From Formosa sediminum (GTDB lineage Bacteria > Bacteroidota > Bacteroidia > Flavobacteriales > Flavobacteriaceae), in NCBI RefSeq assembly GCF_007197735.1, contig NZ_CP041637.1, forward strand, positions 2,575,001 to 2,639,000: DNA of 64,000 bases. The letters run 5' to 3'. Below are positions 561-22,260 of the stretch, one piece after another. The notes under the pieces are model-generated. The model worked only from the letters and a program-made list of their open reading frames with translations. It was not told where the DNA came from and searched no databases. Each line of letters opens with the position of its first letter. The first letter of the stretch is position 1. Made by a program: the position numbers and the translations under genes.

Positions 561-606
561 CTAAGGTAACTTGGATGCTTGAAGTTCTTATCACTGAAAT
601 TAGTGA
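561..606 (-). promoter_or_regulatory. Regulon promoter: 16-bp palindrome plus -7 box
   Basis: Read toward the gene, TCACTAATTTCAGTGA (591-606) is followed after exactly 22 bp by TACCTTAG (561-568), which matches five of the six defined bases of TANNTTTG. The ATG is at 537. The element differs from the palindrome TCACTGAATTCAGTGA at two positions. Confidence 0.6.
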
Positions 607-647
607 TTTTGAAAACTACAGCTCTATTTTGTAAAAATGAATACGGA

Positions 648-1784
648 TTATTGTAGAAAAAGTTTCTTAATATCCTGACGTTTTGGTCCGTAACTACCGT
701 ATACAGTTTTAAAATTTGTGTTTAATTTTTGAAACAAATTAGCATAAGAAAAACGAGGCAATTGGTCTAAACAAGTTATTACAAGATGTTTGTTACTCTG
801 CAAATTTTGATGATGAATAGCATCGCAGCTTAACGCATAATTCAGTAATTCGGTAGCTAAAGCTTGTGTTCTAAATACACCTTGAAACTCGTTAGTCACA
901 TTCGCTTCATTTTCATTATTCTGAAGATTTACAGGTTCGGTTTCTGCCATTGGGCCATTGCCGTGACGGGTTTGATAACAACGGGTTACATAATAGATGT
1001 CTATTTCAGATATGGTTTTTAAATGCGATGTTATCTGCTGAACTGCGTTTTTAGACGTCGTGTAACTCCACGTGGTATGCGGATGAAAACCGTGCTGCGT
1101 ATCGAGTAAAATACCTTGGCTGCCTTCAAAAATAAAATGCTCAAACTTAGAAGCTAGTTCAGAAAGAGCTGCCACATTATAAAACGGTTGCAGAGACTTG
1201 CAACTTTCTAAAAAATAGGCTTCGTTATAATCTTTTAGCTCGTTTTTATAATAATCTTGTACCGCTTTTGGTTGATGCTCTAACTTTGTTTTGTAATAGG
1301 TTTTTATACTTTGCAAGCGTTGTTGTAAAACCCATTGAAACTGTAAATCGTTAGCATACAGGTAAACTTCATCTTTATTTCTGGCAATTGTAGTTCCAAA
1401 TCCCAAACCACAAGAACCGTGCTGTTGTTGTTTTTCTATCGCTCTGTTATAAGCAATGTCGTAAAACGTGGTTATCATTGCTAACGGATGAACATATAAT
1501 TTTGGCTGATAGGGTTTTAAGAAATTACCTTCATCTACAATAGCAGGCGGAAATAATGTGGTATGTTCTGAATAATAGGTTGGTACGCCCAACAAGCTTC
1601 CTGAACCAAAATTACTAAAGGTATGCGTAAGCACCTCTGTAGTTACTGTATGCCCAATTTGGTGGCCACCAGAACACCTAACCACAAGACTATGTTTTGG
1701 ATGTTGTGATGCCAAAAAATCGGTAGTTAACCCTTTTCCAGCATCACCAAATCCTAAATCTATTACTAAGCTACACTTTGGCAT
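648..1784 (-). CDS. Adenylosuccinate-synthetase-like enzyme (shortened PurA paralogue)
   Basis: PurA joins IMP and aspartate using GTP. Several of its motifs are recognisable here. The N-terminal GTP loop reads GDAGKG, with D14 in the catalytic aspartate position. It is followed by GGHQIGHT with H45 in the catalytic histidine position, then GLGFGTT near residue 126, FEGSQGILLDTQHG near 220 and TRCYQTRHGNGP near 265. At 378 residues it is about 50 shorter than housekeeping PurA, and the usual C-terminal part is not recognisable. The ATG directly abuts the stop of the upstream VWA gene, so the two are co-translated. The location inside a VWA/DUF4132 locus argues against a role in purine synthesis. 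The true substrate is unknown; a nucleotide-modifying effector is my inference. Confidence 0.85.
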   Translation of the reverse strand: MPKCSLVIDLGFGDAGKGLTTDFLASQHPKHSLVVRCSGGHQIGHTVTTEVLTHTFSNFGSGSLLGVPTYYSEHTTLFPPAIVDEGNFLKPYQPKLYVHPLAMITTFYDIAYNRAIEKQQQHGSCGLGFGTTIARNKDEVYLYANDLQFQWVLQQRLQSIKTYYKTKLEHQPKAVQDYYKNELKDYNEAYFLESCKSLQPFYNVAALSELASKFEHFIFEGSQGILLDTQHGFHPHTTWSYTTSKNAVQQITSHLKTISEIDIYYVTRCYQTRHGNGPMAETEPVNLQNNENEANVTNEFQGVFRTQALATELLNYALSCDAIHHQNLQSNKHLVITCLDQLPRFSYANLFQKLNTNFKTVYGSYGPKRQDIKKLFLQ

Positions 1785-2648
1785 TTACAACATATTTTCT
1801 ACTTCAGAATTATCTGAAGATGTATTGGTATTGCTTGTAGCTGTATAAGGTTTATGGTTTTCTATCACCACATTTGCAATACGTTTAGCAACCGTTTTAT
1901 AATCAGGAATTTCAATAAAATTTTCTCCCAACAGTGTTTTCCAATTGCCTTTACGGCTTTCTTGTTTTGCCCATTCGTTATGTTCTAAATGCATATGAAA
2001 CACATTATATTTTTCTTGTGCTTCTGCAATAATAGCTTCTGTAGTAATGGTTTCTGCTTGATTAGTACAGGTATATCTTTTAATAATTTCTGCAGGAATG
2101 GTAGGAAAAACAGGTTCGTCTCCAATGGTAAATAAAAATCCTTTTTGTTGTCTTTTTTCCCAACAATCAATAGACGTATGGCGCGCCGCAAATAAATGTG
2201 CTAAATTATAACCTTCTTGATTGTTTCCTCCACCGCCTCCTTCAAGGTAAACACGCGTTAACCAACGGTCTAACAACTCGGCAGACGATTCAAACTGACC
2301 TACTTGTAAAGGTGCTCTGTCGTATATAAAATCTCCAATCCCTAAAAAGAGTACTTGTGGGTCTTCAATTCCCGCTTCCATTAATGAGCCTATAAGGTCT
2401 GGTAGCGCTTCTTTTACAATATGTTCTGGCACAAAACCCATACTACCGGTAACATCTAAAGCTACAATAATAGATACACTTTCTGGATGCTCTTCAGAAT
2501 CTCTAGATTCTCTAACTAGTGCTTTAATAGGGTCCATTTCTGGGTCTAGTGTTCTAGATGTAAATATTTCTTCTCTAGATTTATTGCTGTAATTTTTTGC
2601 TTTTCTTAAACGTGCGTAGGCATCGTTACTAAATCTTCCTCCTCCCAT
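1785..2648 (-). CDS. von Willebrand factor A (VWA) domain protein
   Basis: A 287-residue protein without a signal peptide. The VWA fold begins near residue 58 with VSIIVALDVTGSM, and D65, T67 and S69 form the DxTxS-type MIDAS metal site. A later glycine-rich loop (EGGGGGNNQEG) and a GDEPVF turn follow. The first 55 residues are basic and polar and start MGGGRFSNDAY. The tail is rich in Asn, Thr and Ser. Bacterial cytoplasmic VWA proteins often act with MoxR-type AAA+ ATPases as chaperone adaptors. No ATPase is visible here, but the locus continues beyond the left edge. It lies 2 bp after the coiled-coil gene and abuts the synthetase-like gene, forming a three-gene operon. Confidence 0.9.
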   Translation of the reverse strand: MGGGRFSNDAYARLRKAKNYSNKSREEIFTSRTLDPEMDPIKALVRESRDSEEHPESVSIIVALDVTGSMGFVPEHIVKEALPDLIGSLMEAGIEDPQVLFLGIGDFIYDRAPLQVGQFESSAELLDRWLTRVYLEGGGGGNNQEGYNLAHLFAARHTSIDCWEKRQQKGFLFTIGDEPVFPTIPAEIIKRYTCTNQAETITTEAIIAEAQEKYNVFHMHLEHNEWAKQESRKGNWKTLLGENFIEIPDYKTVAKRIANVVIENHKPYTATSNTNTSSDNSEVENML

Positions 2649-2650
2649 AA

Positions 2651-3001
2651 TTACAGTTCGTTTATTGTGGCACCAAATAAATGCGCATAACGCTTTTTGG
2701 CTAGTTCTAATTTAATTTCTAGGTTTCTAATTTTTACAGATAATTCTAAGTCTTTTGCTACATAATCTTTAGCATCAAAATCTGAAGCTAATACTAAACT
2801 GTTAGCATCTGTAGGACTCATATCTAACATATTATCTTGTTCGCGTTTTAAACGTTTTAATGCCAAGGCTAAATCTTCTGTTTCGCGTTTATACATTAAT
2901 TGAGCATCTTCTGCTATAGCGTGAGCACGGTCGTCTCTTATTTTTTCGTTGTTACGTTTTAGAGATTCTAAAAACGCAGCAGTTTTGGTGTTGTCTTCCA
3001 T
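2651..3001 (-). CDS. Small coiled-coil protein of the VWA operon
   Basis: This 116-residue, highly charged protein is predicted by eye to be mostly helical. Heptad-like runs of Leu/Ala with Lys/Glu extend from about residue 10 to 60 and again from 80 to 108. It has no signal peptide and no recognised family. It is the first gene of the operon with the VWA and synthetase-like genes, separated from the VWA start by 2 bp. A regulon promoter ends 46 bp upstream of its ATG. A structural or adaptor role for the VWA protein is inferred from position only. Confidence 0.8.
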   Translation of the reverse strand: MEDNTKTAAFLESLKRNNEKIRDDRAHAIAEDAQLMYKRETEDLALALKRLKREQDNMLDMSPTDANSLVLASDFDAKDYVAKDLELSVKIRNLEIKLELAKKRYAHLFGATINEL

Positions 3002-3017
3002 AAAAAAAGGTTTTTTA

Positions 3018-3063
3018 CAAAGTTAGCGGCTGTGGTCTTTATTTTTATCCCTGATAACAGTGA
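3018..3063 (-). promoter_or_regulatory. Regulon promoter of the coiled-coil/VWA/synthetase operon
   Basis: In the minus direction, TCACTGTTATCAGGGA (3048-3063) is followed after 22 bp by TAACTTTG (3018-3025), a full TANNTTTG match. The ATG is at 3001. Its partner element for the divergent gene lies 50 bp away, at 3098. Confidence 0.7.
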
Positions 3064-3097
3064 TATTGTGTAGCGTTAAATTCTTCCGAAGAAAAAA

Positions 3098-3143
3098 TCA
3101 CGGAATACAGGCATCAGTTATTTCTGGAAGCAACTTACTTTTG
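3098..3143 (+). promoter_or_regulatory. Regulon promoter of the 3165 gene
   Basis: TCACGGAATACAGGCA (3098-3113) is followed after 22 bp by TACTTTTG (3136-3143), a full TANNTTTG match. The ATG at 3165 is 51 bp beyond the element. The position of the -7 box rules out the longer GTG-initiated frame starting at 3060. Confidence 0.7.
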
Positions 3144-3164
3144 AAAACTTATAAAACCAAAATT

Positions 3165-4070
3165 ATGATTGCATTACACTTATCTTCTAAAGGATTTCAA
3201 ATTAATTCAGAAACCATCACTTTTCCAGTATCTATAGATACTTTAAAACAATGCTTAAATGATGATGTTAAAATATTTAAAAGAAAATTTAACACCATTT
3301 TTACTTGGTCTGATTTAGGAATTATGGCGTATTCTAAAGATGGGAATGTTGCAGAGTCTATCACGATATCATTATGTCTTGATACCCATAATTTTAGTCC
3401 GAAGCAGGTATTTAGTGGTATATTTTATTATAACAATCAAGATATTGTACGGTATTATAAGTCGCATAAACAGCAACACGTTAAGTTATTTAAAGGTGAT
3501 GATAGTGGTGCATTAGTAGAAAATGGCATTAGTGCTTGTTTTAGTAAAGAGGACGATTGCATTTGTGCGATTCAAATAAATAATTATATCCCATATGAGC
3601 GAGGCGCGGGGTTACCAGAAGACAAATACATAATTAAACCGCTTAATGAAGATATTTTGATTTTTGAAGACTTTGGTTTTAAATTATCTGTGATTGAAGA
3701 GTTAATGTATATAAAAGGGTTGATGGAGCCAGTTTTTGATTTGTTTGAATTTGCTGATTGGTATAAAGCTCGAGACATTGATATTGATGAAGAAGGCTAC
3801 GAACCGATAGCTGAAGTCACGCAATATTTTAAAGATCTACCAATACCAAAACGTTTAGCTTCCGAAATTACCGATTTTTATCAAGACGGCGGAAACGATA
3901 TTTATATGAATTTATGTCCGTTTTCTGGTGGTGCTGTTGAATATTGGGATATAGAAACTGCCATAGATGCCAAACAATTTCCTAATCTTAAAAAAGTAAC
4001 ATTATGCTATGCTACAGATGCAGCGTATAAGGAGTTTGAACAATTAGGAATAGAGACAGAATGGTTATAA
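3165..4070 (+). CDS. Hypothetical protein, DUF6892/DUF7738-like
   Basis: This 301-residue cytoplasmic protein starts at the ATG at 3165, because the promoter lies between 3098 and 3143. The N-terminal part (MIALHLSSKGFQINSETITF, then a strand-rich region with a D/W-L-G segment) and the C-terminal part (NDIYMNLCPFSGGAVEYWDI, then QFPNLKKVTLCYATD) resemble domains I recall as DUF7738 and DUF6892. Those names are from memory and unverified. The C-terminal half contains one strand-turn unit reminiscent of a leucine-rich repeat. The gene is monocistronic, with a terminator directly downstream. Function unknown. Confidence 0.8.
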   Translation: MIALHLSSKGFQINSETITFPVSIDTLKQCLNDDVKIFKRKFNTIFTWSDLGIMAYSKDGNVAESITISLCLDTHNFSPKQVFSGIFYYNNQDIVRYYKSHKQQHVKLFKGDDSGALVENGISACFSKEDDCICAIQINNYIPYERGAGLPEDKYIIKPLNEDILIFEDFGFKLSVIEELMYIKGLMEPVFDLFEFADWYKARDIDIDEEGYEPIAEVTQYFKDLPIPKRLASEITDFYQDGGNDIYMNLCPFSGGAVEYWDIETAIDAKQFPNLKKVTLCYATDAAYKEFEQLGIETEWL

Positions 4071-4094
4071 TTTAGTTGTAAATACTTAAAAAAG

Positions 4095-4120
4095 CACGCT
4101 CTAATTGGCGTGTTTTTTTT
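4095..4120 (+). terminator. Rho-independent terminator
   Basis: A hairpin CACGC / GCGTG (4095-4099 and 4108-4112) with an 8-nt loop is flanked by an A-run on the left and eight T residues at 4113-4120. It lies 24 bp after the stop of the 3165 gene. Confidence 0.8.
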
Positions 4121-4171
4121 GCCATTTATTTGTCTAAAATTAGATAAAATTGAAAACAGTATTTATAATTA

Positions 4172-4217
4172 TCATTGGTTTCAGGGATAAGAACAAACTG
4201 CATTAGCTCTAATTTTG
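4172..4217 (+). promoter_or_regulatory. Regulon promoter of the 4244 gene
   Basis: TCATTGGTTTCAGGGA (4172-4187) is followed after 22 bp by TAATTTTG (4210-4217). The ATG at 4244 is 56 bp beyond the element. The flank TTTCAG-GATAAGAAC is shared with the copy at 591-606 read in its own direction. Confidence 0.65.
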
Positions 4218-4243
4218 TCTTATAACAATAAAGCAAAAAGATT

Positions 4244-4891: not shown

Positions 4892-4977
4892 TTTTCCAGT
4901 TGAATTTTTCTTGAAATAAAACCCATCAAAATACCTGCAATATTATTTGTAGGTGTATTTAAAAACAAGGAGTTGCA

Positions 4978-5073: not shown

Positions 5074-5234
5074 ATTTTAAACACATCGTAGTGTAACGGG
5101 TTTAAAAATACTCACCAATTAGATTTATATAGTATCATTTCGCTTGCTTAATTATAGGTAGGTTAGGGAGTTATGTCTTTATTTTTCTAATTAATATCCT
5201 ATTAAAGCAATTACAATCATTAAATTTTATCACC

Positions 5235-6368: not shown

Positions 6369-6414
6369 TCACTGAAAACCGTTACCTAAAAACCTAAGCA
6401 AAACAGCATATTTG
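6369..6414 (+). promoter_or_regulatory. Regulon promoter of the DUF1963/DUF2262/endonuclease V operon
   Basis: TCACTGAAAACCGTTA (6369-6384) is followed after 22 bp by CATATTTG (6407-6414), five of six defined bases of TANNTTTG. The likely original ATG at 6442 is 57 bp beyond the element. Confidence 0.55.
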
Positions 6415-6475
6415 TAATGTATCAAAATTAAAAAACAACTTATGGACAAAGCTAAATTTGAAGAGATAGTTAAAA

Positions 6476-7192
6476 TTGGAAAAATACGATTTATATAAAA
6501 AAGAAGCGTATTTAAGATCCGTAATGTTACCCTCTATTAAAATAGTAGGAGAAAATCGCAGTAAAGAAAATGTAGGTTTAAGTAAACAAGGAGGCTATCC
6601 AGAAGTGCCTGAAGATTTTGAATGGCCTAAACACGAGTTTGGCGATTATCGTTTTGCATTACAAATTAATTTAAGTGAAATTAAATTTGAAATGCCACTA
6701 CCAAAAACAGGAATGTTAAGCTTTTTTATAGCTAATGATGATGATAAAAATGTATTTTTTGGAGCAAAAGATTATGCAAAAGTCTATCATTTTGAAGAAG
6801 GTACTCCCTTAAAAACCTATATAAATCCTAATTTAGATTACTTCTATGTAGATCATTGTATACGAATTGATTTGCAAGAGAATGTAGATATACCTTACAG
6901 AGAAGAGTTACATAAAGACAAAGGATTAAATAAAAGACAACTAGATTACGTATGCAGTAAAGTACCAGATATGGTAAGCAAAAAAACATTTAGTTATTTA
7001 TTTGGATACCCATATTACAACACCTTAGCTTATGATCCGCGTAAAACAGATGAGTGGACGTCGTTACTTACGTTACGATGGAATAATGTTTTTTCTTGGG
7101 ACTGGGATATGGATGAGTTTTTAATGTTTTTTATTGAAAAAGATAAACTTGCCAAAGGTGACTTCTCTAACATAAGAACCGATTTAGGATAA
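6476..7192 (+). CDS. DUF1963 (YwqG-like) protein with a shifted N-terminus
   Basis: The 238-residue body is YwqG-like: GGYPEVPEDFEWP near residues 40-52, then FALQINLSEI, SFFIAND and a late GYPYYN motif. The frame opens at a TTG at 6476. A better start, ATG at 6442, gives MDKAKFEEIVKIGK and then runs off frame at the five A residues 6480-6484, meeting a stop shortly after. Removing one A joins it into this frame as KIGKYDLYKKEA. So either the gene carries a one-base insertion or translation restarts at the TTG. DUF1963 proteins have no settled function. It is the first gene of a tight operon running to 9364. Confidence 0.75.
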   Translation: MEKYDLYKKEAYLRSVMLPSIKIVGENRSKENVGLSKQGGYPEVPEDFEWPKHEFGDYRFALQINLSEIKFEMPLPKTGMLSFFIANDDDKNVFFGAKDYAKVYHFEEGTPLKTYINPNLDYFYVDHCIRIDLQENVDIPYREELHKDKGLNKRQLDYVCSKVPDMVSKKTFSYLFGYPYYNTLAYDPRKTDEWTSLLTLRWNNVFSWDWDMDEFLMFFIEKDKLAKGDFSNIRTDLG

Positions 7193-7201
7193 CATATACA
7201 A

Positions 7202-7627
7202 ATGAAAATAACAAAAGATACGCTCAAAAAAGATTCACGGAGTGAAGATTGTTATAGGACAACAATTGAATCAGATCAGAAAAAAATTGATGTCAGTCTA
7301 AATTTAGAAGACATTAGTTTAGAGGAAATGATTGCTTTAGGAAATTCATTTTTTGAAGATTTTGAAGATAAAAAGAACAAAGCCACAGATGAAATCGTAA
7401 GTGCGTTTTACGAAAATTATAATGAAAACTGGGCCGATGAAGATAATGGATATCCAGAGTTAAGCAAGCAAGAATTCAGAGAGAAGTTAACGATAACAGC
7501 TATTCATTTTTACGCCAAAGATTTAATAGACGTTGTTTATAATGAAGATGGTATGTTCGGGAATCATTATTTAATTGCACAATCTTATGACGGTGAAAAC
7601 TTTGACGATACCACAATGTTTGGATAA
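7202..7627 (+). CDS. DUF2262-like protein
   Basis: A 141-residue acidic protein whose C-terminal part ends GNHYLIAQSYDGENFDDTTM, the pattern I associate with the DUF2262 family. The N-terminal half is helical and charged. No signal peptide or catalytic motif is seen. It starts 9 bp after the YwqG-like gene and ends 12 bp before the second one, so it is translated from the same message. Function unknown. Confidence 0.8.
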   Translation: MKITKDTLKKDSRSEDCYRTTIESDQKKIDVSLNLEDISLEEMIALGNSFFEDFEDKKNKATDEIVSAFYENYNENWADEDNGYPELSKQEFREKLTITAIHFYAKDLIDVVYNEDGMFGNHYLIAQSYDGENFDDTTMFG

Positions 7628-7639
7628 AAAATTAAAAAA

Positions 7640-8347
7640 ATGACTGTAGAAGACCTAAAAAATAAAATATCTAAACCCGTTACTAAATTTACGACCGGTG
7701 GTTTTAGACCAAAAAACACTATTGAAGAAAGTTGGATAGGTAAAGTCTTTGCGTATCACGACGACGAAGACATTCCGTTAGATAAAAACGGCAATCCAAT
7801 GTTTCCGTTGGCGCAATTTTACCTACCTAATTTGCCATACGTTCATCCAAGTCTTAAGCATAAAAAACTCATCACTGTTTTTGTTTCCGCAGAATGGCCA
7901 GAGTGTTTTGAAGACATGGGAGACCATTGGCTTCTTAGAGAATATGACAGTCTAGACCGTATCAAAATTAAAAACTTAGAAACTCCTAATGCGGTTGTAA
8001 AACCTTTTCCGCTACAAGCAGAATTAGATAACAATGATTTTCCGTTATGGGATGGCGGCGGTTTATCTCTAGAAGATGAAGATGAAGTTTTAAAACTAGA
8101 AAATGAAGGCATTATTGATGATTATTTTGATATCACCGACCACATCTACAATCATAAAATAGGTGGTTACCCTTCTTTTTGTCAATCTGGAATTGGTGAT
8201 GCAGAGGGCTTTGGTGAAGGTTTTCAGTTTGTGTTTCAAATTGTATCAGATTATAAAGCAAATTTAAACGTGGTAGATGGTGGTAGCTTAATGTTCGCCA
8301 AAAACAACAATACCAACCAATGGAGTTTGTATTACGATTTTTATTAA
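7640..8347 (+). CDS. Second DUF1963 (YwqG-like) protein
   Basis: 235 residues. Typical YwqG features are LPLAQF-type text (MFPLAQFYLPNLPYVHP near residues 54-70), a central acidic linker and a late KIGGYPSFCQSGIGDAEGF followed by FVFQIVSD. It is only distantly similar to the YwqG-like gene at 6476, so the pair is probably an old duplication or two recruits. It is the third gene of the operon. Two YwqG-like proteins beside DUF2262, within the same regulon as DUF4132, suggest a shared interaction role, not an enzymatic one (inference). Confidence 0.85.
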   Translation: MTVEDLKNKISKPVTKFTTGGFRPKNTIEESWIGKVFAYHDDEDIPLDKNGNPMFPLAQFYLPNLPYVHPSLKHKKLITVFVSAEWPECFEDMGDHWLLREYDSLDRIKIKNLETPNAVVKPFPLQAELDNNDFPLWDGGGLSLEDEDEVLKLENEGIIDDYFDITDHIYNHKIGGYPSFCQSGIGDAEGFGEGFQFVFQIVSDYKANLNVVDGGSLMFAKNNNTNQWSLYYDFY

Positions 8348-8403
8348 TTGAAAGTCTGACAAAAACAAGCACTAATTAAATTTTTAAAATCTAAACAAGA
8401 ATT

Positions 8404-8913
8404 ATGATACTCGCTTTTGATACGTATTATTACGACGGAAAAGCCAAAACCATTGCGGTAAGCTTTAACGAATGGGAAGATGAAGTTCCAACGCAAATTT
8501 ACACGGATATTATTGAAGATGTAGCACCATACGAATCAGGTTCTTTTTATAAACGCGAATTGCCGTGTATTTTAAGTCTACTTAAACAAGTGAATTTAGA
8601 TGAGGTAGAATTAATTATTGTAGATGGGTATGTGATTCTAGAAGAAAAACACTTGGGTTTAGGTGGCTATTTGTACCAAGCTTTAGACCATAAAATTCCG
8701 ATTGTTGGTATTGCAAAATCTGAGTTTGTGTCTAAAACGTCTGTATTTAAGGAAGTATGTCGTGGCGAAAGTAAAAAACCATTGTATGTCACGGCTATTG
8801 GTACAGATAGAGATGAGGTTTGTAACGCCATAGAACGTATGCACGGTAAACACCGAATGCCAACATTACTACAGATTGTAGATACTAAAACAAAAGAAAA
8901 TACGAAGAACTAA
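8404..8913 (+). CDS. Minimal endonuclease V family protein
   Basis: Endonuclease V (Nfi) cuts DNA or RNA near deaminated adenine (inosine). Its landmarks are present: D6 in the first strand (AFDTYY), YESGSFYKRELP with E52, VDGYVILEEKHLGLGGYL with D74, VGIAKS with K105 and GKHRMPTLLQIVD near the end. D6, E52 and D74 fit the metal-binding triad. At 169 residues it is clearly shorter than the roughly 220 of E. coli Nfi, and the DNA-wedge and other loops appear trimmed. It is the fourth gene of the operon. Placement beside a purine-nucleotide enzyme homologue in the same regulon is suggestive. Confidence 0.85.
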   Translation: MILAFDTYYYDGKAKTIAVSFNEWEDEVPTQIYTDIIEDVAPYESGSFYKRELPCILSLLKQVNLDEVELIIVDGYVILEEKHLGLGGYLYQALDHKIPIVGIAKSEFVSKTSVFKEVCRGESKKPLYVTAIGTDRDEVCNAIERMHGKHRMPTLLQIVDTKTKENTKN

Positions 8914-8932
8914 TACATTAAAAAATATAACT

Positions 8933-9364
8933 ATGAATGAAGACTTAATCGTAAGTTCTGAAGACGAATTAAAACCACTATTTAGAAAAAATTATAGGGA
9001 GTTTATAGCCGAAAAACCACGGACTGTTACTTTTGAAGCCGAAGAATTTACCTTATATAATTTTGAAAAGATGATGGAACCGACCAATATAGATGGGATG
9101 AAAGTAAGTCGAATTCACGCATTAAAACCATACGTAAAGACGTTAAGTGAATTTATGAATCCCATATTTAAAGATTTAAATGGATACAAATGGAGTTTAG
9201 AAAAGTTGGCTTTAGGTAAAGCTATAGGTGCTAATTCTGAAGGTGATTTATTGTTTTTTGGTTGTTATGATAATACTAATGTACATCTATTTCGTCACGA
9301 TGACGGAACAATACAAAGAACTTATTTAACGTTCTTTAAAATTGTTAAACAATTTTCAGAATAA
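8933..9364 (+). CDS. Hypothetical protein, possibly SUKH/SMI1-like
   Basis: 143 residues, cytoplasmic. The segment GANSEGDLLFFGCYDNTNVHLFRHDDG near residues 100-125 resembles the strand-turn-strand core of SUKH (SMI1/KNR4) proteins, which bind partner proteins and often serve as immunity factors. The match is by eye and weak. It is the last gene of the operon from 6442, 19 bp after the endonuclease V gene. Confidence 0.75.
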   Translation: MNEDLIVSSEDELKPLFRKNYREFIAEKPRTVTFEAEEFTLYNFEKMMEPTNIDGMKVSRIHALKPYVKTLSEFMNPIFKDLNGYKWSLEKLALGKAIGANSEGDLLFFGCYDNTNVHLFRHDDGTIQRTYLTFFKIVKQFSE

Positions 9365-10960: not shown

Positions 10961-10993
10961 AGTTTTGCTTTAAATATTAGATAACCTCAAAAG

Positions 10994-13369
10994 TTAGACA
11001 TTGGCTTCTTTACTAAACTCTTTTTTCAATTCGGTATAACCTGGCGTTATTAAGTTGTTGTATTTTTTTGGATTCATATTATAGCCATCAAAACCAGAGA
11101 TATAATATTTTAGTTCTTTCAGTTTTAGTTTCTGAAAGTATTCTGGTACGGCATTTTCAAACTTACAACCATCAATATCTAAGCGTTCTAAATGGGGTAA
11201 ATCGGCTATCCAAGTAGGTAAATCTATAAAGTCATTTCCGCCTAAGGATAAGGTTTTTAAAGTTTTAATTTGCTGAATGTATTCTGGTAAAACCTCGTAT
11301 TTGTGACCTATTAAAAATTCGGTAAGCTTTAGTTCCGTAATACTTTCAGGAATGCTATTTACATCATCACCAATGCCCAAAAGGGTTAGTTTTTGTAAAG
11401 CTTTAAACTGATTTAATTTCGCATACCCTTGCATTCCAAATTGGTAACTTAAAGCGATGTATAAAGATTCTAAAGCCGGAGCTTCTAAGGTTTCCAGTGT
11501 TTCAAAAGAGGTATAACTTAAATCTAAAGCTTTTAAATTCGGCAACGTTACTTTAGGAAACGTAGTTGAAACGTCATAATGTGCCATATTTAAGCCCTCT
11601 AAATTGGGCATGTTTTTAATAATAGATTCTAAGTTGTCGCCTTTATAAAAATCTAATTTAAAATATTTTAATTGAGGCGCAGGTTTAGACGTTAAAGGCA
11701 CAAGACTAGCTTCATTATTATCTAAATGTAAATGCTCTAAGTTTATACAATAGAGAAGTATATCTTTAAAATGACCGGTATTTGTATAAGCTTTTAGTGT
11801 GGTTAATAGTTTTGGTTTTGGTAAGTATTGCGTTAAATCTTCTTGCGTATTTTCGCATTCATTAATACCTGAAAAATGTAGCGATTTAGTTATTAAGTTG
11901 CTAAATAAAACCTTAGGTTCTTCAATCGCTAAATTCCCAAAATAAGCCTGTTCTGTTTCTAATAATTTTTCTGAAGCAACATATTCTTGTATGTCGAATA
12001 CGTGCAATTCTTTAATTTTAGAAGGTAAATTAGCAGCATTCAATACTAATTCACGACAGCTATTGAAACTTACATAGTCTAAATGTTTCAGGTCTTTTAA
12101 ACCTTCCGAAATACTTTCTATACTGGCGCCGTACAATTTTAAATAATTGAGTTGCTTACATTTTTCAATATCTTGAAACAAGGTTTCCATTTGACTTCCT
12201 TGATGAATATCGATAGCTTTAAGTGTGTTTAATTGCCCAAAGCCGAGCGTTACAGCAGAAAAATCTGTGATGTATTGAATTATTATTTTTTCTAGATGCG
12301 TAAAACGTTCTGGATGCGATAATACGTAGTTTAAGATTTTTACATCTCTAACTAATAATTCTGTATTTAAAATTGGCGTATTTCCTGGTACAATTTCTAA
12401 ACTATCATCTAAAGTGATGTATTCGCAGCTCTTGGTAAATATTTGATGGTCTGCGATGGTTTTAATTAAAGGGATGGCTTTAAACTTAAGAACAAAAAGT
12501 TTATCTAATTGATTGAATCCGTTAGGAATTTCAATAAGATTTGGACATTTAAATAAGTTGAATTTTTCAAGGTTTACAAGTGTAGAAATACTAGCAGGCA
12601 GTTTTGTGAGGTGCTCTAGTCTTATAAAATCTAATTCTTTTAAACTAGCAGGCAGTTTAAGTTGAGACGTGTCTTTTAAATTGACTTCGTAGAAACCTAA
12701 TTCTTCTAATTTGGTGAGTTTTTCTAGTTGAAGTGATTCTTGAAAATCTGTTGTAATATCACTTAATTCTAGTTCTTTTATATTTTTTAAAGACCAAAAC
12801 GATTCTGGAAATGAAGCCAATTGTGGTAACTCCAAACTAAGCTTTTCTAAACGGTTTAAATTTCCAATATGGCTGGGTAAATACTGGTAGTTGCCTTCAA
12901 TTTCTAAAGCTGTTAAAGAGGTAATATCACAAATTTCTTTTGGCAAACCGTTGGAAAACACATCTTCTATTGTTAGATGGGTAATACCGTTTAAACGTGA
13001 AATAAGATCAGGTTGCTTTTCAAGTAGTTCTGCAATCGCCTCATCTCTAATAGAAAGTCTTGAAAACTCTAGCATAGTGTAAAGTTTCCCAACAGGAAAC
13101 AATGGGTCTTTTAGTCCGAACTTAAGTAAGGTGTTTAAAACCTTCCCTGAATTTTCACCATCTTCAGGCAGCTTATTTCGGGTATTAAAAGCAGCATTAA
13201 GTTCTGGTGTACCAAAACGCTTTAAGGTTTCTGTAATTTCTGTAACTATAATTTCGTCTCTAGAGATTTTTCCTACTAAAAAAAGCTCGTATAAAAAGGC
13301 TTCTGGGTATTTGGGTGCAGTCTTTACATTTTTATAATAACTACTAAGATATTCTATTTTAAAATCCAT
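10994..13369 (-). CDS. Large leucine-rich repeat protein, paralogue A
   Basis: 791 residues. An N-terminal helical domain (about 1-135) with YPEAFLYELFLVGK is followed by some 25 irregular LRR units, for example LTALEIEGNYQYLPSHIGNL and IKTLKTLSLGGNDFIDLPTW, to about residue 765. There is no signal peptide, so it is a cytoplasmic recognition scaffold by family logic. Its N-terminal domain and layout match the LRR protein at 22281 (YPEAFYYEIFVIAK at the same place), making them paralogues on either side of the DUF4132 gene. It is the third gene in its operon, 47 bp after the preceding stop. Confidence 0.9.
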   Translation of the reverse strand: MDFKIEYLSSYYKNVKTAPKYPEAFLYELFLVGKISRDEIIVTEITETLKRFGTPELNAAFNTRNKLPEDGENSGKVLNTLLKFGLKDPLFPVGKLYTMLEFSRLSIRDEAIAELLEKQPDLISRLNGITHLTIEDVFSNGLPKEICDITSLTALEIEGNYQYLPSHIGNLNRLEKLSLELPQLASFPESFWSLKNIKELELSDITTDFQESLQLEKLTKLEELGFYEVNLKDTSQLKLPASLKELDFIRLEHLTKLPASISTLVNLEKFNLFKCPNLIEIPNGFNQLDKLFVLKFKAIPLIKTIADHQIFTKSCEYITLDDSLEIVPGNTPILNTELLVRDVKILNYVLSHPERFTHLEKIIIQYITDFSAVTLGFGQLNTLKAIDIHQGSQMETLFQDIEKCKQLNYLKLYGASIESISEGLKDLKHLDYVSFNSCRELVLNAANLPSKIKELHVFDIQEYVASEKLLETEQAYFGNLAIEEPKVLFSNLITKSLHFSGINECENTQEDLTQYLPKPKLLTTLKAYTNTGHFKDILLYCINLEHLHLDNNEASLVPLTSKPAPQLKYFKLDFYKGDNLESIIKNMPNLEGLNMAHYDVSTTFPKVTLPNLKALDLSYTSFETLETLEAPALESLYIALSYQFGMQGYAKLNQFKALQKLTLLGIGDDVNSIPESITELKLTEFLIGHKYEVLPEYIQQIKTLKTLSLGGNDFIDLPTWIADLPHLERLDIDGCKFENAVPEYFQKLKLKELKYYISGFDGYNMNPKKYNNLITPGYTELKKEFSKEANV

Positions 13370-13416
13370 TAAATTTTTTTTAAATGATCTGCATGTTTAA
13401 CGATAAAAGAGTATTA

Positions 13417-13851
13417 TTAAATAGCTACACGGTTTATTAACTCCATGCGTTTTAAAATAATAGGTACAAATAATGCAAATTTGGCATTAAACTCTTCTTG
13501 TGTTTTGGCGGTGTTTAAATTATCTCCCATGGTAATCCAAGTGGAGTATAAATCTTCTTCCAAACTTTCTTCTGTAGTATCAATATTTAAAGCTCTAATT
13601 AACTTGAAATTTTCATCCTGATTATAAAATCCACTGTCTTTTACAATTTCGAAAACGAGTTCAAAAATACTTTGAGTCGATAAAAGTTCACTAATTTTTA
13701 GTTCGGTCTCTTTAGAAGCACTAATAGATTCAAAGACATCAACCATTAAATTTTGTACTCTACCATTTATGTTAAAATCTAGATATTTCAAATCCTTTAA
13801 TTTTAAAATGTTATTATTTATAGGTGTTTTTTGATTATGATAAGGCTGCAT
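13417..13851 (-). CDS. Hypothetical helical protein
   Basis: 144 residues, mostly helical and acidic, beginning MQPYHNQKTPINNNILKLK and containing MVDVFESISASKETELKI. No domain recognised. Its start overlaps the end of the DUF1444-like gene by 17 bp, so translation is coupled. Position two in the LRR operon. It may be a small partner of the LRR or DUF1444-like protein (inference). Confidence 0.75.
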   Translation of the reverse strand: MQPYHNQKTPINNNILKLKDLKYLDFNINGRVQNLMVDVFESISASKETELKISELLSTQSIFELVFEIVKDSGFYNQDENFKLIRALNIDTTEESLEEDLYSTWITMGDNLNTAKTQEEFNAKFALFVPIILKRMELINRVAI

Positions 13852-14458
13852 GTCCGGTTATTTCACCGTCTTTAACAACAAAAAAGATGTTTGCAATTGG
13901 AGCGTTACCATAACTATCATCTTCCCAAGCATTTTTGTGTAAGTATAAAAATGTGTTTAATAATTCATTATCTGCATCTTTAGAGATTACCATCATACAA
14001 GAACGTCTTGGAATTGAAACTAATAATTCATCAGCCTCTAGCATCTTATGAGCTTTTAACATGTGCGATTTAGATAGAATTCTTTCACTCGAAAAATCAT
14101 GTCCGCTAGCGGTAAGGACTTTGTTTTGTAAAGCTTTAGAATATTCAAATTCTGTATTGTAATTGTCTATGTTTTCGAAAGCTTCATTCATTATGAATTG
14201 TCCATCCATAGTTTTTAAATGGTCGTGAGTTAAGAACACAAAATTATCGGGTGTATCCATACCATAGGCAATAACAACTTCTAAATCGCCATCTTCTTCG
14301 GTACCAATTAAATTAGAACTTATTGCACCAGCTCTAAGCCCAACCCAATTTCCTGGTTTTAAAATTGGATAGATTTTTTTATCGCTATTTTCAGTTTGTT
14401 CTACTATTTTAGCTATTTCTTCAGGTGTTTTTTCTGGGCCGTAAATTGTACTACTCAT
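13835..14458 (-). CDS. DUF1444-like protein, first gene of the LRR operon
   Basis: 207 residues. After an acidic N-terminus come a strand-rich half with a glycine-rich turn and then FVFLTHDHLKTMDG, a helical stretch, LLVSIPRRSCMMVISKDAD and IANIFFVVKDGEITGH. This order (a 'threshold helix', then a hydrophobic strand with two Met/Val rows, then a final strand pair) resembles DUF1444/YtpQ, a family of unknown function. A regulon promoter lies 54 bp upstream of the ATG. It overlaps the next gene by 17 bp. Confidence 0.75.
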   Translation of the reverse strand: MSSTIYGPEKTPEEIAKIVEQTENSDKKIYPILKPGNWVGLRAGAISSNLIGTEEDGDLEVVIAYGMDTPDNFVFLTHDHLKTMDGQFIMNEAFENIDNYNTEFEYSKALQNKVLTASGHDFSSERILSKSHMLKAHKMLEADELLVSIPRRSCMMVISKDADNELLNTFLYLHKNAWEDDSYGNAPIANIFFVVKDGEITGHAALS

Positions 14459-14482: not shown

Positions 14483-14528
14483 CAAAACTAGAGAAGCTTT
14501 TCAATCTATTTCTCACGGTATTCAGCCA
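14483..14528 (-). promoter_or_regulatory. Regulon promoter of the LRR operon
   Basis: In the minus direction, TGGCTGAATACCGTGA (14513-14528) is followed after 22 bp by TAGTTTTG (14483-14490), a full -7 match; the ATG is at 14458. The rest of the 14459-14798 gap holds only the palindrome at its far end and AT-rich sequence in which I see no gene. Confidence 0.7.
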
Positions 14529-16941: not shown

Positions 16942-16964
16942 TGGTGTTCGTGTGTTTTGCGTTA

Positions 16965-17052: not shown

Positions 17053-17061
17053 CTGTTAAAG

Positions 17062-20000
17062 TTAGCTATTTATTTGTGCTAAAATGGTTGGGTCTTGAAT
17101 TTTATTATCTTCGGAAAGTAATTTCATTTTAGAAATAATTTCTGCCGATTTTGGGTCGTCGTCTACGAAAGGCAAGAACATACGTCCGCGATGCTGACTG
17201 TGCACCGGAATGATGGATAATGCTAATCCGTTTTTACTCACCATACCGCTCCCTAAATGAATGCTGTATTCGCCAAGTTTTCCTTTAATAAATACGTGAC
17301 GCTCTTTAACCGTAATGTTAGCCAGCTTGAATAGTTTTGCAGATTCTTCGGCTAATGCTGCACGCATTTGCATTGTGCTATGACTAGCTTCTGGGTCTAC
17401 ACCACCCACGTGAGCCACGCTAACTACTAAGTCGATATCTCGCATAATTTCGCTAAACACAACTTCTGGAATTTCGGTTAACGGAATTCGCTGATAGGTG
17501 TCTATTGCGTGGAAACAGATATCTTCTAAGGTTGGTGCTTCTGCCTCAGACGGCGAATACCAATCTGCCATTGCATACATTGTGGCAATGAAACCACGTT
17601 TGTGATATACTTTTTGCAATCCATCTTCCATACTTACCGTCCAACCACGACCACGTAAAAGTGCTACAGTTTTTTTAGGTTGAATCTGGTAACCTTGGTA
17701 ACGTTCTGAGCGGTTGCTGTGTTCGCGCTCATCGTCTGTAATTAGGTACAATTCTCTAAATACTTGTTTAAATGGTTGCACTAAACGTTCTGCAAATAGG
17801 TGTTTTTGATATATATCCCATTCTACAGTTTTGTATAAATGTGAAGCGTGAGCTATACGTAACACATCGGTTTCTGCCAATACGTGGGTTTTTCCTGTTG
17901 GATTGGTTAAGACACCTTCTTTGTAAAATCCTGTAATTTCTTTTTCTGAAACATACATTACCAACTTGCTAAGCATAGCTTTAACGATAGGATGCTGCAT
18001 CATTTTTTGAATTTCTGATGCTGTAAATTCATCTTCGTTTACCATTGCATTTTCTAGAGATAAACGCGTTCTACTATATTGTCTTGACAGGTAGGTTTTA
18101 TGGTCTTTTAAAGTAATAACTTGCTTGTCTTTGCGCAATTTAGCAGGAATATTTTTAAGAGATTTACCCGCTTTAGTCACTTTTATTTCTGCTTTACCAA
18201 GTTCGTTTATTATAAGTTCTATTTCTGTTTCTTCTATGGTGATTTTAGCATTCTGCATAATGGTTTGTGTGGCTTTAGCCTCCATAGCCCAACTAAAACG
18301 TACACGGTCTGTATAGCCTGCCGTACGCGATAAATTGTCTAGTGCAATTTCTACAGCAATAGCTTCACTTTCTTGACGTTGTGCCCCAAATTGTTTGCTT
18401 TCTTTTAAGAAATCTTGTAGTAAATTGTAACGCTTTAAAAGGTCTTTTTCTGGTACGGTTTTACTTAACGGAATTAAACCTAAAGCACGCACATAATCTT
18501 TATCGCGCTTGTCTTTAATTTTTTTAAGGGTTTCGGTAATTTTAACTTCACCAAGCATAACACTAGAGTATAGTTTTACTTGACGGTGTCCGTTACCATC
18601 AGAAATATATTTGGCCGCATCGTGAAGCAATTTCCAATTAGATTTACCAATGGCTGTATACACTTTGTTAAACCAATCTACATCTATTGCACCAAGAGCA
18701 AAATCACTTTTAGGGATGTTAGAATAGCGTGAAATAATGGTTTCTTTCTCCGAATTCATATAATCTGAAGCGTGAGCCTGGAACCACCAAACGGCACTTT
18801 CTAAATTTTCTAGACCTAGATATTCGCCAACAACACCTGTCCATTGTGTTGCATAACACGCCAACTCTACCAAGCGTTTTTTAGTGATTTTAGAGGTATC
18901 TGCAAGTTGAGCAAAATCGGCATAACTTTCGGTATCTTTAAAGGCTGTTTTCTTTAAAATGTTGCTAAAAATTGTTTTCCTGCTATCGCCATAATAACTG
19001 TAACCGCGTTCAAAATTATCTTTACCTAAACGTTCTAATATTCTAAATACATAATTTACACCTTCTACACGATGAATACCTGACATATATCCTGTAGCCG
19101 TAGTTGTTATATCGCCACGTTCTAATTCGGTCTCTAATAAATTAGCTTTTAATGGCTCAATGACGTGTTTAGGAATAGAGCCACGTTCTATTAATTTATA
19201 ATTCATTCTATAATTAAACCCACCATCCATAATCACCATTAACTCGTGTGAGTTTAAAGCCTGAAAACGTAAATCGTCATCATTAATTAAACCTGCTTTA
19301 TAAAGTTTTAAAGTGACTTCTAAGTTAGGAAAAGGCACAACACCAGGTCTTTTCTCCTGTTCTGTAATCACTTTAACGTCTGTAGTAGCTGTAGGATGAT
19401 TAATATCTTGCGCCACTAAATACATATAAAGCCCCCAATACCTTTGTAATTGTTCTGAAGATAAATAGTCTAAATTTGTATTGCTTAATCCTGGTGCTAG
19501 TGGTAACACCACATTGGCCCAATTGTAAGTCTTGGTATTGTAACGATAATTAGAAGACTGAAACTGTACGAGTTTTAGATTATTAGGGAAATTGGCAATC
19601 ATATCTTCCATCACATCTAATTTAAAAGAAATGATGGTTTTCATATCTGTATACACTTTAGCCAAACGTCTTAAAATGGTTTCGTACGAATCTGAAGTGG
19701 TATAATATTGCCTAGCATCACCTAAATTTAAACCGTTTAAATCTGGATAATATTGTCTTGCAAAAGGCTCTAAATCTTTATAGTCTCCAAACGGATTATT
19801 ACGATTAGCGATATAGCGAATGGCAGCATACATTTCAAAATCGTTAAGTTTACTTTGCTCGTACCAAGCAATCCAAACCTCTGCCAATGGGATATTGTGT
19901 AAGCGTTCTTCTGCAGTTGCATTGTCCCCTAAATTTTTAATATCTCTAATCCCTTTTGCTATATAGGTAGTTGCTATTTCGCCTTGGTAAACTTCGGTTT

Positions 20001-22065
20001 GATATTCGTGATTTTTATTTTGGGTTACTAAATCTATAAGTCCATTTACTTCTTTTATAATTTTATTCGTATCTATAAATTCTTTGAACTTGAATTTAGA
20101 AGATTCAGATAGTGAAATGCCCAACTTATCAAAGAAACTCGTCTTCGTTTCAAAACGAGATACGGGCTGATATAGTGGCGTTAAATTATCGTAATCTATG
20201 GCGCCAAAACCATTACTATAGTTAAATTCTTCTGCATTTTCTGAAAATTTATCTAAGTAAACTTGTTCGTTTTTAGTAATTTTTGGACGCGCGTTATATG
20301 TTTTAATCTGCTCTTCAACAAAATTAGATTGCCTATTACTGTCGTGTAAAAGGGTTAACAATTCTAAGCCTGCTAAACGTTGGTCTATACTTTTTGAAGT
20401 TACTAGATTAATAGTAGTATTTCTTAAATCATCTACCGTAAACTTTAGTATTATTTGTAGTAATGTAGTACGTAAATTTTTATGTTTTCGTTTTAACAAA
20501 TCTTCTACAATTTGTAAATCTTCATCATACAAATGCATTCTACTAAATAAATTGAGTCCGGTAGCCATTAATATTTCATTTCTATTACAAATGATAGTTC
20601 TGGCTAAAGCACGTTTCCAATTATATTTGTCTAAGTTTAAACGTTCTCTTTTTTCTGCATTTAGATTTAAATTATAAAACGAATAGCTATATTGTTTAGG
20701 GAACACTTTACGTATATATTCTTCTCTAAACTCTGTAGGGAAAACCTCTACATCTTTAGCCATTAACTCTAATTGTGCTTCTGTAGCGCTATAAATTAAA
20801 AAGCGAAAGAAGTAATAAGAAGAAGGTGTAAAACTCCACCACGAGAATATTTTACTCTCAAAGGTTTTACCTTTTTCTTCTGCTGTTTTGGCAACCTCCA
20901 GTAATTTTTGAAGGGTAGTATCATCTAATGGAGTTTCTGGTAAGTTTACCGCCAACCAATGGTCTACAGCGTAATCTTCGCCTAAGTGTTCTGTAAAATA
21001 AGGCACTAAAGCATCATTAGTTCTATCTGTTTTACTAATAAAGTATAAGGCTAGAATTTTTTTGTGACGGTCTTTAGACTCCAACACAATATCTATTGCT
21101 TTTCTATTAGCCGTGTCTACATCTAAAATTGCAATAGACCACAACCCAATCAAGACTTCTAAATTATCTTTGCTTTTTAAGTAAGTATCTACGTCTTTTA
21201 CATTTAAAATTAACGTGTGTGCTAATTCTAACACACGATTAATCACCGATTTTTTAGGTGTATCCCAATTTAATCCAAACCACGCGCTTACTGCTTTGGT
21301 AACACTTGTAAAACGTGTAAGGTCGTTATCTAAAACGACCTTAATCATATATTTTAAAGCACCAAGTCCCGCTTCGTCTAAAGACTCTAAAATGGTTTGT
21401 CTTAAGCCTTCTTGGCGTTGTGCTGCCAATAATAACTTGGCTACCATTTCCCAGTGTTTTTCTTCTTCAGAAAACAACAAGGCTTTAATAATGTCTGAAC
21501 TTATTCCTCCAACTTCATCTTCTCCCTGAATAATATCGTCTAACAGTTCATCAAACATTCCATTACCGTTATGGAGTAAAGTAGCTAGAAAATAACTATT
21601 TCCGTTAGGGAAATAGGTGCTGTATTGAAAATGTTCTTGTAAAGATAATCCGCCAAAACCTTTTCTACTTAAACTTAAGAAATGTGTAAAAACTTGAAGT
21701 TTATTACGCAATGTATCTTCCGTTTTTACAGACCTAAACGCTTTTCTATTATAACCTTTTTGGTAAGGTAAAGTATCTATAAAGTCCCACATATCTGCTA
21801 AGTATGGTGCTTGTATAATACCAAATAATTGCATCCCTAAACGCATTCCTTCTTCGTTACGCCAAGGGTTATTATTAATGGCATCTTCAGAAACCGCAAT
21901 GTAATCTGTAGTGGTATAATAATCTCTTCTTTCGCCTTTATCAATGCGACCTAAAATTTTAGCTAGTACTCTATAAGGCTCAGAAAATGCACGAAATTCA
22001 AAACGGTCTACTTCTGGTTTTCTATGGATGTGAATATGCTTTTCAGCTTCTTCTATTGGAATCAT
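17062..22065 (-). CDS. Giant DUF4132 domain protein (DUF5724-type N-terminus likely)
   Basis: 1667 residues, no signal peptide. The first 1300 or so are a long helical array (ARM/HEAT-like by eye; many LLAxAxE and LEDLLKRKHKNLRTTLLQII-type helices). The C-terminal part carries DUF4132: HLYKTVEWDIYQKHLF, PFKQVFRELYLITDDE near residue 1440, RGRGWTV near 1480 and AMADWYSPSEAEAPTLED near 1505, ending FLPFVDDDPKSAEIISKM. The E. coli relative MolR/YehI joins a WGR domain to DUF4132 and is encoded near a MoxR ATPase and a VWA protein; no WGR is seen here. The gene has a regulon element and is divergent from LRR paralogue B. It is probably the core scaffold of the system. Confidence 0.9.
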   Translation of the reverse strand: MIPIEEAEKHIHIHRKPEVDRFEFRAFSEPYRVLAKILGRIDKGERRDYYTTTDYIAVSEDAINNNPWRNEEGMRLGMQLFGIIQAPYLADMWDFIDTLPYQKGYNRKAFRSVKTEDTLRNKLQVFTHFLSLSRKGFGGLSLQEHFQYSTYFPNGNSYFLATLLHNGNGMFDELLDDIIQGEDEVGGISSDIIKALLFSEEEKHWEMVAKLLLAAQRQEGLRQTILESLDEAGLGALKYMIKVVLDNDLTRFTSVTKAVSAWFGLNWDTPKKSVINRVLELAHTLILNVKDVDTYLKSKDNLEVLIGLWSIAILDVDTANRKAIDIVLESKDRHKKILALYFISKTDRTNDALVPYFTEHLGEDYAVDHWLAVNLPETPLDDTTLQKLLEVAKTAEEKGKTFESKIFSWWSFTPSSYYFFRFLIYSATEAQLELMAKDVEVFPTEFREEYIRKVFPKQYSYSFYNLNLNAEKRERLNLDKYNWKRALARTIICNRNEILMATGLNLFSRMHLYDEDLQIVEDLLKRKHKNLRTTLLQIILKFTVDDLRNTTINLVTSKSIDQRLAGLELLTLLHDSNRQSNFVEEQIKTYNARPKITKNEQVYLDKFSENAEEFNYSNGFGAIDYDNLTPLYQPVSRFETKTSFFDKLGISLSESSKFKFKEFIDTNKIIKEVNGLIDLVTQNKNHEYQTEVYQGEIATTYIAKGIRDIKNLGDNATAEERLHNIPLAEVWIAWYEQSKLNDFEMYAAIRYIANRNNPFGDYKDLEPFARQYYPDLNGLNLGDARQYYTTSDSYETILRRLAKVYTDMKTIISFKLDVMEDMIANFPNNLKLVQFQSSNYRYNTKTYNWANVVLPLAPGLSNTNLDYLSSEQLQRYWGLYMYLVAQDINHPTATTDVKVITEQEKRPGVVPFPNLEVTLKLYKAGLINDDDLRFQALNSHELMVIMDGGFNYRMNYKLIERGSIPKHVIEPLKANLLETELERGDITTTATGYMSGIHRVEGVNYVFRILERLGKDNFERGYSYYGDSRKTIFSNILKKTAFKDTESYADFAQLADTSKITKKRLVELACYATQWTGVVGEYLGLENLESAVWWFQAHASDYMNSEKETIISRYSNIPKSDFALGAIDVDWFNKVYTAIGKSNWKLLHDAAKYISDGNGHRQVKLYSSVMLGEVKITETLKKIKDKRDKDYVRALGLIPLSKTVPEKDLLKRYNLLQDFLKESKQFGAQRQESEAIAVEIALDNLSRTAGYTDRVRFSWAMEAKATQTIMQNAKITIEETEIELIINELGKAEIKVTKAGKSLKNIPAKLRKDKQVITLKDHKTYLSRQYSRTRLSLENAMVNEDEFTASEIQKMMQHPIVKAMLSKLVMYVSEKEITGFYKEGVLTNPTGKTHVLAETDVLRIAHASHLYKTVEWDIYQKHLFAERLVQPFKQVFRELYLITDDEREHSNRSERYQGYQIQPKKTVALLRGRGWTVSMEDGLQKVYHKRGFIATMYAMADWYSPSEAEAPTLEDICFHAIDTYQRIPLTEIPEVVFSEIMRDIDLVVSVAHVGGVDPEASHSTMQMRAALAEESAKLFKLANITVKERHVFIKGKLGEYSIHLGSGMVSKNGLALSIIPVHSQHRGRMFLPFVDDDPKSAEIISKMKLLSEDNKIQDPTILAQINS

Positions 22066-22133
22066 ATCTTATTATGCTTAATCTCTTATTTAAATGTAAA
22101 ATATTAGCCTATATAAACAGGCAATAATGGTTT

Positions 22134-22179
22134 GCAAGATAAATGTAATCTTAAATTTTGAACTCACGGTATTTAGTGA
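22134..22179 (-). promoter_or_regulatory. Regulon element of the DUF4132 gene
   Basis: In the minus direction, TCACTAAATACCGTGA (22164-22179) is followed after 22 bp by TATCTTGC (22134-22141), a weak -7 match (four of six). The ATG is unusually far, 98 bp beyond the element, giving a leader of about 60-70 nt. A degenerate third copy (22181-22196, ending TATTTAGTGA) sits between this and the element at 22215. Confidence 0.55.
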
Positions 22180-22214
22180 TTTTTTCTATTTAGTGATTTT
22201 TTCTGCTTGTAATA

Positions 22215-22260
22215 TCACAGAATACAGTGACAAAATACAGCTGCTTTTAAAATAGATTTG
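22215..22260 (+). promoter_or_regulatory. Regulon promoter of LRR paralogue B
   Basis: TCACAGAATACAGTGA (22215-22230) is followed after 22 bp by TAGATTTG (22253-22260), a full -7 match. The ATG at 22281 is 50 bp beyond the element. This is one of the two copies closest to the palindrome. Confidence 0.75.

Follow-up and report, generated by a model that had tools for sequence, protein, structure and literature searches.

What does it mean that one 16-bp palindrome stands upstream of seemingly unrelated genes, always facing the same kind of promoter box, and which protein reads it? The question is raised by a locus of Formosa sediminum, in a stretch of 64,000 nucleotides (contig NZ_CP041637.1, genome positions 2575001-2639000; hereafter the window) whose left part encodes a VWA-like protein, a DUF4132 protein and leucine-rich repeat (LRR) proteins. 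We have found that the palindromic element and its box define a regulon of at least ten promoters in one 34-kb cluster. Judged from sequence comparison, the element is probably the operator of a two-component system encoded in the same cluster, which would activate promoters lacking a -33 box.

In the window the element is present in eight copies, at 591, 3048, 3098, 4172, 6369, 14513, 22164 and 22215, with 2, 4, 4, 4, 4, 4, 3 and 2 mismatches to TCACTGAATTCAGTGA, respectively. The eight bases exactly 22 bp past the element, in the direction of the gene, are a full TANNTTTG in five of the eight cases (3048 and 14513 on the minus strand; 3098, 4172 and 22215 on the plus strand), are one defined base off in two (591 minus and 6369 plus), and are two defined bases off at 22164 (minus), before the DUF4132 gene. 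The distance from element to ATG is 46-57 bp for seven promoters and 98 bp for DUF4132. The first-pass annotation, made from the letters of the window, had given the same positions, mismatches, orientations, box rule and seven start distances, and all of them are reproduced here. With the window's own frequencies, and uncorrected for the choice of offset and direction, the chance of finding at least seven of eight boxes with at least five of six matches at one fixed offset is P ~6e-13.

Taken together, element and box are clustered and not randomly spread in the genome, the point on which the proposed regulon had been staked. The composite TCACNGNATNCNGTGA-N22-TANNTTTG, at up to three mismatches, gives 14 matches in the 3.93-Mb genome (control 3); twelve fall within 2563562-2597260, two of these twelve being opposite-strand readings of the same palindromes. 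A refined composite pattern gives 11 matches, nine of them inside the 34-kb cluster, and none in the control. When a matrix is run over 164 kb, ten sites score at least 26.1 bits and everything else at most 16.0; since these ten sites are the training set of the matrix, the scan shows separation and not discovery. Scored at 33 gene starts with a matrix trained on sites including the same ten, the ten promoters reach 17.5 to 37.0, the gene of a protein of 131 amino acids (aa) 2.3, and the other 22 stay below 0. The genes at 5235, 9540 and 15314, which had been named as free of the element, have best upstream scores of -5.9, -19.3 and -13.3. All ten sites stand before the first gene of a same-strand run, and none, among these 33 starts, before a run-internal or unrelated gene. 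The shared element and spacing proposed for the window are supported and reach beyond it, two of the ten or more promoters lying to its left, while the palindrome alone is not enriched.

The candidate for the reading protein is encoded by one of the runs itself. From the element at 591 leftward, the genes encode a 351-aa protein (SUKH), an 828-aa protein, a DUF1266 protein, a 752-aa TPR protein, a histidine kinase and a response regulator, separated by 44, 3, -13, 24 and 6 bp, and they may form one operon. The kinase (genome 2567050-2569017) combines TPR repeats with HisKA_3 and HATPase domains (PF07730, PF02518), and its residues 395-418 form a hydrophobic stretch. The NarL/LuxR-type regulator (2566408-2567043), the last gene of the run, has a receiver (PF00072, 5.7e-28) with a DISMP phospho-acceptor region and a GerE helix-turn-helix (HTH) domain (PF00196, 1.5e-14). 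This domain pair, with a HisKA_3-type kinase adjoining, is the arrangement of the NarL/FixJ family, and VraR and NarL are among the best PDB matches. The kinase and regulator genes are found 8.6 to 6.0 kb beyond the left edge of the window, in agreement with the earlier expectation of a regulator just outside it. A kinase homologue is present at all 37 regulator loci searched (two of them weak, paralogue loci counted in). The recognition helix reads SVNTVETHRKN in the clade of the cluster regulator and mostly SKHTIESYRKN in the remainder of the group.

The cluster with its elements, mostly at the same spacing, recurs in seven other loci: in G100, G256 and G236, which belong to other genera than the window's genome and may coincide with the genera of the named loci, in Flavobacterium frigidarium, Winogradskyella wichelsiae and Leeuwenhoekiella aestuarii, and, more diverged, in Mesonia hippocampi. 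As the promoter sequences differ among all seven clusters, the loci are distinct; across the four named ones the regulator is 82-93% identical. We have compared orthologous promoters pairwise (36 rows from seven gene families and 8 loci, placed with a matrix including the 22-bp spacing; one row, the 116-aa gene of G100, is a poor match). Agreement is 0.85 in the element and 0.73 in the box; the spacer reaches 0.37, the 14 bp ahead of the element 0.58 and the downstream flank 0.47. Just before the element A is nearly invariant, being present in 1.00 of rows at a distance of 4 bp and in 0.97 at 3 bp. If the element is instead placed by a box-free 16-bp matrix, no distance does better than 22 bp in 28 of the 36 rows (one of them spurious, a neighbouring element with 3 of 6 box matches); with known exceptions, the site thus keeps one distance and adjoins the -35/-33 region, as class II activation has it. 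Four of the eight misses come from the close divergent pair of the 116-aa gene and the opposite gene, where the neighbour's element scores higher, and two from DUF4132 promoters with a box other than TANNTTTG; the last two belong to G100, whose deviating distances are given below. For the promoter of the SUKH-to-regulator run, 22 bp is best or tied in six of six orthologues examined, four of which have weak elements. Overall, orthologous promoters largely retain the element, its spacing and the box particular to each gene. For the 329-aa gene in L144 to L147, the starts used are not start codons, and the element-to-start distances there are void; elements and boxes are unaffected.

Transfer of the cluster between species is suggested by its patchy distribution. 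G014, a genome of the same genus, lacks both a close regulator (38% at best) and a DUF5724 match. In the mapping of empty sites, the CitMHS gene flanking the cluster found no match at E 1e-60 in G014, G100, G236 or G256, and the PfkB flank no close orthologue in G014. In Winogradskyella wichelsiae, too, a CitMHS transporter gene (L145:13777-15105) adjoins the cluster; its product shares 82% identity with the transporter on the right flank of the cluster in the window.

The box variants are gene-specific across loci. The DUF4132 box, called weak in the first-pass annotation, is two defined bases off as said, but in cluster-type loci it is a conserved TAnnTTGY variant: it reads TATCTTGC or TACCTTGC in the four such loci compared (the window, G100, G256 and G236), always at 22 bp. 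In the part of PMC9723704 used here, TAnnTTGY at -12 to -5 is the SM5 motif of Flavobacterium psychrophilum, which is ascribed there to an alternative sigma factor. The variant does not extend beyond the cluster: sites standing 0.3 to 0.7 kb ahead of the DUF5724 match in G033 and G119 have the boxes AATTTTTG and TATATTTG, which are not of the TAnnTTGY type. The divergent promoter of the 131-aa gene has a full TANNTTTG at 48 bp from a strong palindrome in eight of eight loci. A second geometry of 48 bp was considered for it and dropped, as a degenerate second element stands exactly 22 bp before the box; the mean matrix score of this element peaks at 22 bp but is low (-2.5), and is -13 or less at every other shift tested.

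To what extent does the motif go with the regulator? In 298 genomes of the family, scanned with a pattern drawn from several species and one mismatch allowed, the composite motif occurs in 22; summed by hand, its matches number 57, and those of the reversed control 4. A relative of the regulator scoring at least 145 bits is present in 35 of the 298, namely in 21 of the 22 motif-positive genomes and in 14 of the 276 motif-negative ones (table 21, 14, 1, 262; Fisher P 5.6e-22). An effect of genome size or of the number of regulators has been tested and set aside. The link holds in both size strata, with counts of 17, 7, 0 and 54 for genomes of at least 3.9 Mb and 4, 7, 1 and 208 for smaller ones, and a paralogous control regulator of the same genome is found in 16 of 298 genomes at E 1e-70, the window's own genome being the sole motif-positive one. 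In a tree of 44 regulators, which includes the best matches of 19 of the 21 motif-positive regulator-bearing genomes, all 19 group with the cluster regulator; the same group also holds eight from genomes that are motif-negative at this threshold.

Sites are also found where the surrounding genes are different. G249 has one directly before kinase and regulator. G011 and G001 have sites such as TCCCTGTTTTCAGGGA near the kinase-regulator genes, among other surrounding genes that include LRR and a sub-cut-off SUKH match; there the site is followed, on the same strand, by two small genes (G011) or one (G001), and then by kinase and regulator. In G019, 16 scattered matches stand upstream of varied genes (L098-L112), so that such a regulon can be scattered as well as clustered. 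Ten of the 16 targets extracted there were scanned: two have DUF1963, two YARHG (one with LRR) and one CpeT, and five have no match over the cut-off, one of these being a homologue of the 131-aa protein. At the threshold used for this neighbourhood scan, 260 kb of Markov control sequence contained no match. G050 has DUF5724, with no site in 40 kb around it and no close regulator. In G127 (L227-L228), genes for homologues of the 131-aa protein and of a 229-aa cluster protein stand together with an open reading frame (ORF) of 3176 aa and with genes for a kinase and for a regulator whose recognition helix differs.

How might the system work? According to the part of PMC6847099 used here, the Bacteroidota -7 box is placed at -12 to -5. 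With the box there, and the putative transcription starts set accordingly, the element spans -50 to -35, has its centre at -42.5 and abuts the -33 region. The TPR membrane sensor kinase would phosphorylate the NarL/LuxR-type response regulator, and a dimer of the latter would bind the 16-bp inverted repeat, directly upstream of the -7 box and in place of a -33 box. The bound regulator may then help RNA polymerase with sigma-A to start, i.e., class II activation, and about ten transcription units would be switched on. As the unit of kinase and regulator is itself among the targets, the circuit would be self-amplifying (positive feedback). That an activator site replaces the -33 box had been proposed from the window alone, and the alignments support it in that they show no TTTG where a -33 box would lie; activation itself we infer.

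Several observations weigh against an operator read by the cluster regulator. Across the genome the bare palindrome is no commoner than its reversed control (15 against 16 places at up to three mismatches) and has been dropped as evidence when taken alone, and of ten window places with up to four mismatches to it, two (17479 and 30053) have no box at 22 bp. The spacing is not universal, the G100 promoters of the 329-aa and 116-aa genes fitting best at 21 and 23 bp. As to the association, the 145-bit cut was set after inspection of the list, only the ten best candidates in each genome were scored, the genomes are related by descent, and the cut of the control regulator is stricter than that of the test regulator. 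Fourteen genomes have the regulator and no motif match at this threshold; in G236, one of the fourteen, the matrix nevertheless picks out clear sites. Stretches of ~20 kb around the regulator contain no site in G215, G247 and G019 (one of its two regulators there), and G117 has one weak and one stronger site at ~16 and 26 kb from the regulator. G127 has no site in 40 kb despite a related regulator and two target-gene homologues, with a recognition helix that differs. There is also G042, with a motif match and no such regulator, which is what one would expect if some other regulator bound the element and the kinase-regulator pair were carried along. We consider this quite improbable, as it is at odds with the association across the 298 genomes, which includes genomes with scattered sites and differing genes, with the sites before kinase-regulator runs in other neighbourhoods, and with the negative paralogue control (one paralogous regulator compared). 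The lack of enrichment of the bare palindrome would suit a chance resemblance or an internal DNA repeat, a reading to which we give next to no weight, contradicted as it is by the composite enrichment, the spacing, and the conservation beside a diverged spacer.

NarL/LuxR-family regulators act both ways, so membership of the family cannot decide between activation and repression. A palindrome that touches the promoter is compatible with an operator for repression, at which the regulator or another protein near -42.5 would block the polymerase and the cluster would come on upon release. We regard this as unlikely: the near-constant spacing of 22 bp is more than repression needs, and a -33 place free of TTTG is the expectation for activator-dependent promoters. 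The near-fixed distance to the -7 region would also fit an upstream box of an alternative sigma factor, the more so as the TAnnTTGY box of cluster-type DUF4132 equals SM5 as given in the part of PMC9723704 used here. The inverted symmetry, however, suits a dimeric regulator; most boxes are of the sigma-A type, one element precedes two box types, and among the region proteins scanned no separate sigma gene is found, the Sigma70_r4 matches being the regulator's own HTH. Such a sigma box therefore seems very improbable, and the operator of the cluster-encoded two-component system remains the reading we favour.

The ten promoters and their genes are arranged as follows. That of the SUKH-to-regulator run (561..606, minus; element 591-606, box TACCTTAG at 561-568) precedes a run that goes on left of the window. 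The promoter at 3018..3063 (minus; element 3048-3063, box TAACTTTG at 3018-3025) precedes the 648..3001 run (minus) of the 116-aa, VWA-like 287-aa and PurA-like 378-aa proteins. The 287-aa protein is VWA-like only through a DVTGSMG motif read by eye, with no Pfam match, and the 378-aa protein is a remote PurA/PurZ relative; this run is among the best conserved of the cluster, at 70-90% identity to other loci. Divergent from it, the promoter at 3098..3143 (plus; element 3098-3113, box TACTTTTG at 3136-3143) serves the DUF7738/DUF6892 gene (3165..4070, plus), whose ATG at 3165 is 51 bp past the element; its ORF was called from a GTG at 3060 and its Pfam scan made on 3150-4070. The promoter at 4172..4217 (plus; element 4172-4187, box TAATTTTG at 4210-4217) precedes the 215-aa gene (4244-4891). 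That at 6369..6414 (plus; element 6369-6384, box CATATTTG at 6407-6414) precedes the run of DUF1963, DUF2262, DUF1963, Endonuclease V-like and 143-aa proteins (6476..9364, plus). At 6442-6476, an ATG stands as far from the element as expected, but in another reading frame than the long DUF1963 ORF, whose called start is a TTG at 6476. Either there is a small frameshift close to the start, or the sequence contains an error. The promoter at 14483..14528 (minus; element 14513-14528, box TAGTTTTG at 14483-14490) leads into 207-aa, 144-aa, LRR 791-aa and 256-aa genes (10190..14458, minus). A divergent pair closes the series in the window: the promoter at 22134..22179 (minus; element 22164-22179, box TATCTTGC of the TAnnTTGY type at 22134-22141) for the 1667-aa DUF5724-DUF4132-DUF7737 protein (17062..22065, minus), and that at 22215..22260 (plus; element 22215-22230, box TAGATTTG at 22253-22260) for the 837-aa LRR protein (22281..24794, plus). 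Left of the window, the promoter at genome 2563562-2563607 (plus) lies upstream of the 229-aa gene (called as 238 aa from a TTG), which is followed by a TssD/Hcp-like gene (L021:9333-9725), and the fully palindromic one at 2565298-2565343 (plus) lies between the 329-aa and 131-aa genes. The 131-aa protein has a predicted fold with a mean predicted local distance difference test (pLDDT) score of 81.7, for which a PDB search gave no match at E 0.001 or better. Its family is present in 3 of 198 genomes of the class, and being so rare it is of little help in tracing the regulon widely.

SUKH, DUF1963 and DUF1266 are immunity-like families. When ten cluster proteins were scanned with the PADLOC models, the only match was to TPR, in the kinase, with no defence-system match otherwise. 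One tentative, and on balance doubtful, view is that of a portable self-regulating island: TPR kinase and regulator would travel among Flavobacteriaceae with their own promoters lacking a -33 box and a changing, immunity- or conflict-like set of LRR, SUKH, DUF1963, DUF1266 and DUF4132 genes, the same regulator family elsewhere governing similar scattered genes, and DUF4132 being transcribed with an alternative sigma factor. For the unexplained families DUF4132, DUF5724, DUF6892, DUF1963, DUF1266, SUKH and LRR, the analysis names a regulator that may control them, the DNA it would bind and a rule for their promoters, and their co-regulation is a first handle on a joint role. Given the sensor, the cue that calls up the targets may come from the envelope or from outside the cell. 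The cluster is also a clean test case for an activator that replaces the -33 box in Bacteroidota.

In the open-licence PubMed Central literature we have found no earlier report of the motif or the regulon, and known systems resemble it in parts. The vWA-MoxR nucleoside triphosphate-dependent conflict systems likewise combine, in the part of PMC7159879 used here, a VWA-like protein and varied partners in one cluster; no Pfam match to a MoxR AAA+ ATPase was found among 40 region proteins scanned, and DUF4132 is not mentioned in the main text of that paper. The DUF4132 promoters of four cluster-type loci resemble SM5 in carrying TATCTTGC or TACCTTGC at that place, whereas the selection of SM5 genes printed in the part of PMC9723704 used here contains no DUF4132 gene and no activator element is described there. 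The Bacteroidota sigma-A promoter has TTTG at -33, a motif weak in general, and TANNTTTG at -7 (PMC6847099, in part); the -7 box is alike in the cluster, while the -33 box is replaced by the element, mostly at 22-bp spacing. The regulator is built like the NarL/FixJ members VraR and NarL, with receiver, GerE-type HTH and DISMP region, and an inverted repeat is its proposed target; it differs from them in forming its own group with its own recognition helix, and in its element, TPR sensor and target genes. In the class II arrangement of LuxR at the lux box, an inverted repeat has its centre at about -42.5 and borders the polymerase site. The inverted repeat of the cluster element is likewise centred at ~-42.5 and adjoins the polymerase site, with a two-component receiver in place of the autoinducer domain and the Bacteroidota -7 box in place of the -10. 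Overall, this is a real, conserved and regulator-linked promoter class, a new regulon of a kind already known.

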